Origin: an uncultured Coriobacteriaceae bacterium
Lineage (GTDB): Bacteria > Actinomycetota > Coriobacteriia > Coriobacteriales > Atopobiaceae
Direction: 5' to 3'
Assembly (NCBI GenBank): GCA_902793465.1
Contig: CADBDT010000008.1
Coordinates: 1 to 64,000 of the forward strand
Length of the DNA: 64,000 nt
Position numbers and translations under genes: made by a program. Under the pieces are notes generated by a model that searched no databases, was not told the origin of the DNA, and worked only from the letters and a program-made list of their open reading frames with translations. Of this stretch, positions 21,791-24,086 are shown one piece after another. Position 1 is the stretch's first letter; the number at the start of each line of letters is the position of its first letter.

Positions 21791-21875
21791 GAGCACACCC
21801 CTTCTAAAATTGCGGTCAATGCTTAATACCGCGAAGAGGAGCGCATTTCAAGACTACAAATAATGATGCATTTGT

Positions 21876-22048
21876 GGTATTGTGATACCCGATTCACGGG
21901 GCAAGGGAGCCCCGAGCCGACGACCATCCAAGGGGATGTCTTTTTGGTCATTGTTCTGTAGGGAACGCTAGAACCTAACGATTTAAGAAGGGCACATAGG
22001 TTGCCCCAGGTTTGTTGCGTTCCGAATCCCTGCACCAGTAACGGATTC
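21876..22048 (+). ncRNA. Highly structured leader before the methyltransferase
   Basis: At least five hairpins in 170 bases: GGTAT-TGTG-ATACC (21876-21889); CGGGGC/GCCCCG (21897-21914); CATCC-aagg-GGATG followed by TCTTTTT (21925-21945, terminator-like); a seven-base stem GGAACGC/GCGTTCC (21962-21968 with 22017-22023) enclosing GGGCA/TGCCC; and GAATCC/GGATTC (22024-22048) just before the ribosome site AGGA. This looks like a regulatory leader, riboswitch or separate RNA. It does not match the riboswitch consensus sequences I know (cobalamin, SAM-I, THF, c-di-GMP, fluoride, T-box). Confidence 0.45.
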
Positions 22049-22068
22049 TCATAGAACAGGACAAAAAA

Positions 22069-22785
22069 ATGAATTTCCCGAAGGCAGGCACCTTCCCTCT
22101 ATCCACCATGCGCAAGCGCAGCATGGGACCAAACCCGCTCAAGCTCTGCGAGGAGCTGCTCGGCTACGCAAGCATTCCGACAGGCTCAGTCGTGCTCGAC
22201 CTCGGCAGCGGCGCGGGCCTCACGAGTGCCCTCATGGCGCGCGAGTATAGACTCATCGTATATGCCGCCGACCTGTGGAGCGACCCTTCCGACAACATGC
22301 GATTCTTCGAGGAATGCGGCCTCACCAACCGTCAGGCCATCCCGATAAAGGCCGATGCAACCGCACTCCCCTTCGCGCACGGGTTCTTTAAAGCCGTGGT
22401 ATGCGTCGACTCGTACAACTACTTCGGCCGCGACCCGGGCTACCTTGGCAATCACCTGCTGCCGCTCGTAAAGCGAAGCGGCGAACTTCTTTTTGCCATA
22501 CCTGGCATGACGCGCGACTGCCACGACAACCTGCCCGCGTGCCTGCTCGCGTCCTGGACCCCCGAGCAGCTCGACTACATGCACGACATAGGCTGGTGGA
22601 GGACCAACCTCTCACAGACGCAGGGCGTCGACATTCTCGATATGCGCGAGATGGCCTGCACACGCGAGGCGTGGGCAGACTGGATCGAATGCGATAACGA
22701 GTACGCCAAGGGCGATCGAGCCGCCGTTGAGACAGGCGCGCTCGACTACCTTAGCACCATCGCTGTGAGACTCAGACGCAGGTAG
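22069..22785 (+). CDS. Class I SAM-dependent methyltransferase
   Basis: A 238-residue Rossmann-fold methyltransferase: motif I VVLDLGSGAGLTSAL near residues 41-55, an acidic motif II at the end of strand 2 (YAADLW), and KADATALPF before strand 4. It groups with small-molecule methyltransferases of the UbiE/arsenite type by general layout. It lacks the three cysteines of ArsM, and its substrate is unknown. It stands behind an unusually structured leader and before a broken MATE transporter gene, a setting that suggests drug or metabolite handling. Confidence 0.75.
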   Translation: MNFPKAGTFPLSTMRKRSMGPNPLKLCEELLGYASIPTGSVVLDLGSGAGLTSALMAREYRLIVYAADLWSDPSDNMRFFEECGLTNRQAIPIKADATALPFAHGFFKAVVCVDSYNYFGRDPGYLGNHLLPLVKRSGELLFAIPGMTRDCHDNLPACLLASWTPEQLDYMHDIGWWRTNLSQTQGVDILDMREMACTREAWADWIECDNEYAKGDRAAVETGALDYLSTIAVRLRRR

Positions 22786-22929
22786 CGCAAAACACCTGCT
22801 AGAGAGCGATGACACGGACCGTGTCGCCAACGTGGCGGCACGGCTCTTTTCCAGTAGCCCCATGGCACGTACATTCGCCTTGCCATGGTGCCACCAACTG
22901 AGAGGAGAGTCGAAGTGAAAAAGATAACA

Positions 22930-23382
22930 ATGATGCAAAAGGCAAACGGCGACCTCGTAGCGGGGACGACGCTGCTCGCCGCCAACGGAGACTCGGCCAA
23001 CCTACTGCCCGACCTCGAGATGCACCTCAAGGGCCTTGCGGTCGGCACGCCGGGAGTCGTAATGTTTAGCCTGCTCATCCCCATCGTGCAGATGAACGGC
23101 GGCGGTAAGGTGGTCCGCATTACGGTTATAGTTGGGGTTATTGTAAATGCGGTGCTCGACATCTTGGCTGGCACACTCGGCTGGGGCATGCTTGGCATGG
23201 GGCTCGCAACCAGCATTTCTGCTTGGGCGGAGTACCTATTGCTGCTCGTCTACTCCCTCAGCTCGAAGTCTTCCGTTCACTTCTCGTACGAGGACGCCGA
23301 TTGGTCCAAGTCCAATAAGATAAAAGCTGGCAAGCAATTTAGCGCTTGCCAGCTTTTTTATGACAGGTACAATTACCCCTGA
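22930..23382 (+). pseudogene. MATE efflux transporter, internal fragment
   Basis: About 130 codons correspond to the middle of a MATE-family transporter (LLPDLEMHLKGLAVGTPGVV; NGGGKVVRITVIVGVIVNAV; MLGMGLATSISAWAEYLLLL). The family is normally about 450 residues, so both ends are missing. The frame runs on through a terminator hairpin to a stop at 23382. A GACACGG-A-CCGTGTC palindrome lies upstream near 22809. Confidence 0.6.
23322..23360 (+). terminator. Rho-independent terminator
   Basis: AAAAGCTGGCAAGC pairs with GCTTGCCAGCTTTT over 14 bases with an eight-base loop and runs into a T-tract. It probably ended the original MATE operon. Confidence 0.85.
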
Positions 23383-23402: not shown

Positions 23403-24086
23403 ATGGCAAAACGGACGGCGCTTCGCAACAGCGTGCTATCCGCGCTCGGACGCACGTATGAATTGCGGCAAGAAGATCTGGGCTCAGACGCTCACCTTTC
23501 TGCAAAGGGCATGACATTCGAAACCGAGAGTTGGAAAATCCCTGGGGTCGGCCACCTCTGCGTCATGCAGATGAAGGCGTTTTTGGGGCTCATGCGCATG
23601 GAGACGGTTATCGTAGCCCCTACAGATGTTGATGTCCCATTGTTCAACCTGGACTGGGTAAAGGCCTTTGGTACCGAGACTCAGATTGCCGAGTTGTACA
23701 ACATGCAGCTAGTGCCCTGGCCAGACGAGTGCAACGACGCGTTTGAATGCGCCCGCAACCAATACGCAGACCTTCCTGACGCCCCAGCAGGGGAGCCCCA
23801 TTGGTACGACGACATCTTGTATCCCTGCTCGCTCCACAAAAAGGGCAGGGGGCAAACGGAACGCATGTCAAACGCCGCCCAGGATTACCTCACGACCTAT
23901 GTCGAACTGCTTGCGGCTGCACCGACCTGCAATCCCAAGAAAAAAGCAGCAAAGGTTCAGTCCTTCGCCGAGAGGCTGTTCGAAGAAGGCGGGCCGGCAG
24001 TCAACCAGGTTACCAAGCTCTTTGGCAAGCAAACGGCAAGGCGGGTCATTCTGCAGCACATGTACGGTGTCAAGGAATCCGAATAA
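23403..24086 (+). CDS. Protein of unknown function, 227 residues
   Basis: A soluble protein without signal peptide or membrane segment. The middle reads VIVAPTDVDVPLFNLDWVKA, and the C-terminus FAERLFEEGGPAVNQVTKLF then GKQTARRVILQHMYG. The PLFNLDWV stretch and the GGPAV...LFGKQTAR end faintly recall ferredoxin-dependent bilin reductases, but this is weak and should not be taken as an assignment. GGGAGG precedes the ATG. It is followed after 23 bases by a DUF1295 membrane enzyme and the two are probably co-transcribed. Confidence 0.6.
   Translation: MAKRTALRNSVLSALGRTYELRQEDLGSDAHLSAKGMTFETESWKIPGVGHLCVMQMKAFLGLMRMETVIVAPTDVDVPLFNLDWVKAFGTETQIAELYNMQLVPWPDECNDAFECARNQYADLPDAPAGEPHWYDDILYPCSLHKKGRGQTERMSNAAQDYLTTYVELLAAAPTCNPKKKAAKVQSFAERLFEEGGPAVNQVTKLFGKQTARRVILQHMYGVKESE

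Follow-up and report, generated by a model that had tools for sequence, protein, structure and literature searches.

A conserved leader of a coriobacterial methyltransferase gene as a probable five-codon, leader-peptide translational attenuator

Introduction

The leader that precedes a methyltransferase gene in an uncultured Coriobacteriaceae bacterium (GenBank contig CADBDT010000008.1) raises the question of what it senses and by which route the signal reaches the gene. It occupies 21876-22068 of the plus strand in the window, by which is meant the whole stretch of 64,000 nucleotides that was analysed. An initial annotation, made from the letters alone, described an unclassified leader of five hairpins and suggested that it is a small-molecule sensor. 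Here, the leader is examined by folding, by comparison with its relatives and by the properties of the gene that it appears to govern.

Results

The plus strand of 21876-22068 folds at -67.7 kcal/mol (z = -3.1), a stability reached by 0 of 200 dinucleotide shuffles, while the reverse strand gives z = -1.9. All five annotated hairpins appear in this fold where they had been placed, among them the seven perfect pairs closing a multi-branch (21962-21968 with 22017-22023) and the last hairpin near the ribosome site (22024-22029 with 22043-22048). The hairpin farthest 5′, GGTATTGTGATACC (21876-21889), is present in the sequence; however, it overlaps an extended -10 promoter, TG-n-TATTGT (21875-21883, plus strand), that recurs in most relatives, in which TGnTATNNT or TANNNT elements (e.g., TGnTATGAT and TATAAT) stand 32-56 nt before the core. 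The transcript thus probably begins near 21890, which leaves this hairpin outside the RNA, probably as a DNA signal rather than a transcript structure. The hairpin that follows, CGGGGC/GCCCCG (21897-21914), carries compensatory changes at five of six pairs in 38 relatives and is absent from some distant lineages. A small hairpin, CATCC-AAGG-GGATG followed by T5 (21925-21938), contains the Shine-Dalgarno of an upstream open reading frame (uORF). Both the fold and a terminator scan recover the terminator-like pattern ascribed to it, and it is retained in the 38 close relatives; however, it is weaker in distant ones, and as a terminator it is probably not conserved in other lineages. The inner 7-bp stem, whose strands GGAACGC (21962-21968) and GCGTTCC (22017-22023) join the uORF to the ribosome-binding site (RBS) of the methyltransferase, is also found in the consensus fold, and among the 38 relatives it is mostly invariant, with 99.2% of cells paired. 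Within the junction, the consensus fold of 20 close leaders contains a hairpin GAATCC/GGATTC (22024-22048) that is not present in every lineage, and the internal helices of the leader vary between lineages generally. The most informative feature of the leader is a stem that the annotation had not singled out, formed by 21947-21959 with 22051-22062, which closes the multibranch around the RBS.

An Rfam search with the leader gave no match at the gathering threshold and no credible one up to E = 10, in keeping with the earlier statement that no known riboswitch core is recognisable. It had been allowed that the leader might prove to lack conservation in related genomes, or to be a decayed tRNA or phage element. 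The latter is ruled out, as no tRNA lies near the leader and no viral or phage match was obtained; the former is contradicted by a DNA search that detected the leader in 27 of 100 related genomes, some with several copies. Members of the close set are approximately 79-88% identical, over the full leader or over 21897-22064 of the window, and distant ones are matched over a shorter core. When the genomes of 84,980 species were scanned with a core pattern, 82 stretches were found, all from Coriobacteriia but three (Marinomonas, a Verrucomicrobium and Enterococcus), which are without the rest of the element. Over all searches, 82 distinct coriobacterial loci carry the leader (the count of distinct cores, which coincides with the number of stretches from the pattern scan), nearly all of them directly upstream of one methyltransferase family, so that an unclassified, structured leader before a methyltransferase gene is borne out and conserved. 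It occurs, among others, in Collinsella, Adlercreutzia, Slackia, Parafannyhessea and Ellagibacter, and in numerous metagenome bins from rumen or gut; Parafannyhessea umbonata is a cultured example. A protein search of 296 genomes of the class gave a methyltransferase match in 33; the leader accompanies the close full-length matches and is absent from three distant ones (L065-L067). Four nearly identical orphan leaders (L018, L032, L033 and L036), found in several genomes, keep the promoter, the uORF and the inner stem and have lost the methyltransferase; they are preceded by a MATE gene and some are followed by an ATPase gene, as if the methyltransferase had been repeatedly replaced.

The core of the leader is the uORF TTG GTC ATT GTT CTG TAG (21944-21961, plus strand), encoding fMet-Val-Ile-Val-Leu-stop, with the Shine-Dalgarno AAGGGG at 21930-21935. 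Frame and length are identical in 82 of 82 coriobacterial loci, each with AAGGGG, 8 nt, a TTG start, four codons and TAR; a conserved short reading frame with its own Shine-Dalgarno, start and stop, as a leader-peptide attenuator would possess, is therefore present throughout. At L014/L064 the uORF start carries a one-base deletion. Counting changes per column on a tree of 66 of the methyltransferases, columns 1-5 (Shine-Dalgarno) show no change and its leading A one, and the eight columns of the spacer ATGTCTTT between Shine-Dalgarno and TTG (21936-21943) have two changes in total. At codon 5, the third base has changed five times and uses all four letters. The T and A of the stop have never changed, its third base has done so nine times, exclusively between G and A, and the columns 3′ of the stop show 7-11 changes each; conservation thus goes no further than the stop codon. 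Although columns 1-23 were in part fixed by the search pattern, the columns left free (6, 9, 18, 20 and 24 onward), together with loci found by protein alone, give the same picture. The peptides are MVIVL (with Leu as CTG, CTT, CTC or CTA), MVLVL, MDLVL, MVLAL, MVFVL, MDLVQ and MVVVF, with MNLVR at one decayed locus. In 80 of 82 loci the third residue is Ile or Leu, and by this residue, together with a very short hydrophobic peptide ending at the stop, the uORF would pass as MsrDL-like, although the match is a resemblance, short hydrophobic peptides being common. A search of the TTG frame for an ATG or GTG farther upstream that the loci have in common gave none.

The uORF also provides one strand of the stem that hides the RBS. 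In the consensus fold of the 20 close leaders, uORF bases GUC.UUGUUCUGU (within 21947-21959) form 12 pairs with ACAGAACAGGAC (22051-22062), which holds the methyltransferase Shine-Dalgarno AGGA (22058-22061). In the 38 relatives, 99.3% of cells are paired and changes are one-sided only. Covariation of homologous leaders, which the annotation had proposed as a check, is found between lineages, where the two strands change together: GUUCUUU with AAAGAAC (L054), GUCUUU with AAAGAC (L149), UUCUAUAAAG with CUUUAUAGAA (L099), CUUGUCCU with AGGACAAG (L027 and L121) and UUCUGUAG with CUACAGAA (L023). In a swap test, uORF and RBS strands from the same leader pair at a mean of -16.5 kcal/mol, versus -14.6 (sd 0.24) for permuted partners, and 0 of 20,000 permutations reached so low a value. 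When each distinct uORF arm was represented by a single row (23 rows), 1 of 20,000 was as low as the observed pairing. As the rows are related and not independent, these counts are a guide and not exact probabilities. Ensemble prediction gives 12.9 uORF-RBS pairs per leader, compared with 2.4 when linker and RBS are dinucleotide-shuffled, and at least 5 in 71 of 71 leaders. An RBS-hiding structure that involves the uORF region, the other element expected of attenuation, is thus found in the 12-pair stem and upheld by the swap and shuffle tests. Placing a ribosome in the model with codon 5 in the P site, such that the bases beneath it are held single-stranded, raises the mean unpaired probability of the methyltransferase Shine-Dalgarno region from 0.23 to 0.51 and that of the start codon from 0.40 to 0.65. 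Of 71 loci, 33 show a gain of over 0.3 at the Shine-Dalgarno and a few show a loss, and opening of the RBS by a ribosome on the uORF is accordingly predicted to be partial and lineage-dependent. At L037, L099 and L126, the distance from core to methyltransferase start is approximately 270-290 nt, compared with approximately 137 usually, with extra sequence between uORF and RBS; L037 and L099 retain uORF-RBS complementarity despite the longer spacing.

The gene downstream (22069-22785, plus strand) encodes a class I SAM-dependent methyltransferase of 238 aa with a Pfam match to Methyltransf_11 and an AlphaFold2 model of pLDDT 91.9. By model and profile it lies nearest to the small-molecule methyltransferases MitM, BezA, RebM, TleD and AtmM, which makes a role in resistance or detoxification plausible. 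In Pfam it has no match to the Erm/KsgA family (PF00398), and there is no rRNA methyltransferase among its top fold matches, an absence that excludes nothing. E. coli YjhP (1nkv) is a weak structural relative, and the fold that the two have in common is no evidence of function. In most loci the gene stands alone, and no neighbour is conserved across loci. Directly after it in the window lies a truncated MATE/MurJ-like transporter fragment (22885-23382) fused to unrelated start and end sequence. Such a fragment is not commonly found next to the gene at other loci; its place is taken, in a few close relatives only, by genes for a PAP2 phosphatase and a helix-turn-helix membrane protein. Farther on, 23403-24086 encodes a protein of 227 aa that matches Fe_bilin_red, the ferredoxin-dependent bilin reductases, weakly and below threshold (E 1.9e-5), which is unexpected in a gut coriobacterium. 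The window's own genome also holds a decayed second copy of the methyltransferase (contig C5, L157:1501-1644), of which the last 46 residues only are left, joined to a foreign ATP-binding protein fragment. Distant relatives of the enzyme, in actinomycetes and on Streptomyces and Peptoclostridium plasmids (the plasmid-borne ones at 34-36% identity), have neither the core nor a telling common context. Upstream of one distant methyltransferase without the core (L165, genome G227), a frame upstream of position 2441 begins MHRTRLRRF, whose Arg-X-Arg motifs are like those of macrolide-arrest leaders; as a single case, this may be chance.

Discussion

Taking the loci together, sequence comparison establishes the uORF, the RBS-hiding stem and their joint conservation, and the leader is probably a leader-peptide translational attenuator. 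Since the invariant core is a five-codon uORF that forms one strand of the RBS-hiding stem, the sensor is most likely the translating ribosome. This model proposes that, in the resting state, a ribosome would complete the uORF fast and depart, upon which the stem would close and the methyltransferase would not be made. A ribosome lingering or stalled on the uORF would instead free the methyltransferase RBS and turn the gene on, the stall being caused, probably, by a drug that acts at the exit tunnel or the peptidyl-transferase centre, and the enzyme might then methylate the inducer or another toxic small molecule. We lean slightly towards an inducer that is a ribosome-targeting small molecule; that the methyltransferase itself detoxifies such a molecule is proposed more tentatively. 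Against attenuation stand a start codon, TTG, that is weaker than ATG, a stem with one-sided changes only inside the close set, the covariation lying between lineages, a predicted opening of the RBS that is only partial, and the nearly invariant spacer ATGTCTTT, for which the model gives no account.

The proposed exposure of a methyltransferase RBS recalls ermC and ermB, in which a ribosome halted by a drug on the leader peptide uncovers the methyltransferase RBS. The ermC and ermB peptides are longer than five residues, and the erm product belongs to the rRNA dimethylase family, which the present enzyme does not match. The tlrB gene of Bacillus subtilis (yxjB, RlmAII) likewise has a leader peptide, MIIQFIRYR, 5′ of a methyltransferase and a hairpin that hides its Shine-Dalgarno until a ribosome stalls (PMC6851288). 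However, the tlrB peptide has 9 residues with an RYR arrest motif, a terminator is added, and the product is an rRNA methyltransferase, whereas the uORF here has 5 residues and no +X+ motif and precedes an enzyme nearest to small-molecule methyltransferases. In E. coli toiL (topAI-yjhQ-yjhP), a uORF pairs with a downstream Shine-Dalgarno, and ribosomes stalled by several antibiotic classes open the pairing (PMC12121999). The likeness extends to the operon encoding YjhP, although that operon begins with a toxin gene, its uORF has no sequence relationship to the present one and its regulation involves Rho as well. MsrDL (MYLIFM-stop) is stalled by erythromycin at its stop codon, with Leu3 and Ile4 critical, as Leu or Ile at position 3 is for erythromycin-resistance pentapeptides (PMC10314930). 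In common with it, the peptide here is hydrophobic and very short, has Leu or Ile at positions 3-4 with a stop directly after, and precedes a single gene, a resistance gene in msrD and a putative one here; however, MsrDL governs the intrinsic terminator of an ABC-F gene, whereas the uORF here pairs with a methyltransferase RBS and its drug response is putative.

The leader probably senses a small molecule, as the initial annotation suggested, although it is better read otherwise than as an aptamer-type riboswitch and the MATE fragment on which the suggestion partly leaned is not a conserved neighbour. A metabolite-binding riboswitch would place the invariant core AAGGGGATGTCTTTTTGG within an aptamer, with the RBS stem serving as its expression platform, and would suit a conserved multi-hairpin leader, a single gene family downstream and a spacer whose near-invariance is not explained by any coding frame. 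However, conservation that obeys codon rules and stops exactly at an in-frame stop, invariant bases that lie in an unpaired or RBS-pairing stretch rather than in a multi-helix pocket, internal helices that differ among lineages and the want of an Rfam family make this quite improbable. Leaders of ilv and leu operons sense the charging of branched-chain tRNAs, and the Val-Ile-Val-Leu codons might do the same for amino-acid supply, as every residue that follows the start is branched-chain in MVIVL, the commonest peptide. Since Asp, Asn, Ala, Phe, Gln and Arg are substituted in other lineages, such a sensor is less likely; moreover, each kind of codon occurs once and forms no run, and the downstream gene is not one of amino-acid biosynthesis, leaving the proposal very improbable. 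It has also been considered that the hairpin at 21925-21938 with its T5 acts as a terminator, relieved by uORF translation or a ligand, to which the RBS stem is secondary. The terminator-like pattern and its retention in close relatives agree with transcription attenuation of this kind; however, the short hairpin loses pairs in distant lineages that retain the uORF and the RBS-hiding stem, and its T run overlaps the uORF start codon, so that this is the least probable of the explanations weighed.

No structure or frame was found that accounts for the near-invariance of the spacer, which lends some interest to a variant in which translation initiates at ATG 21936 and reads MSFW..., perhaps slipping by -1 within the T run so as to yield MSFLVIVL-stop. 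The near-invariance itself speaks for such a start, as does the sole first-base change of the spacer, ATG to TTG (L060), which still gives a start codon. Column 20, which changes faster than any other up to codon 5, is also silent in that frame. However, column 20 is the lone unpaired base of the RBS-hiding stem and is free to change on that account, the Shine-Dalgarno would abut the ATG at 0 nt spacing, and the unshifted frame has 17 different end lengths, with a stop at codon 4 in one locus. The variant is thus unlikely, and a second initiation at ATG 21936, or a -1 slip giving the longer peptide, is speculative.

The leader is real and conserved, and probably a leader-peptide attenuator; a literature search returned no description of the leader or of an MVIVL leader peptide, and the class of mechanism is already known. 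Its widest interpretation, of which we are doubtful, is an inducible resistance system running through the gut and rumen Coriobacteriia as a lineage. Its five-codon, drug-sensing peptide would control an enzyme that inactivates a ribosome-targeting small molecule by methylating that molecule and not the ribosome, with the spacer hinting at a second layer in the form of a second start or a frameshift. With codons that double as an RBS lock, a five-codon uORF is near the smallest possible sensor of its type, and the case illustrates how the codon pattern of a leader can move an apparent orphan riboswitch to another class. For a widespread, uncharacterised methyltransferase of gut Actinomycetota, the leader provides a predicted trigger, ribosome stalling, and a possible role in drug or natural-product resistance that the annotation 'methyltransferase domain protein' may mask.
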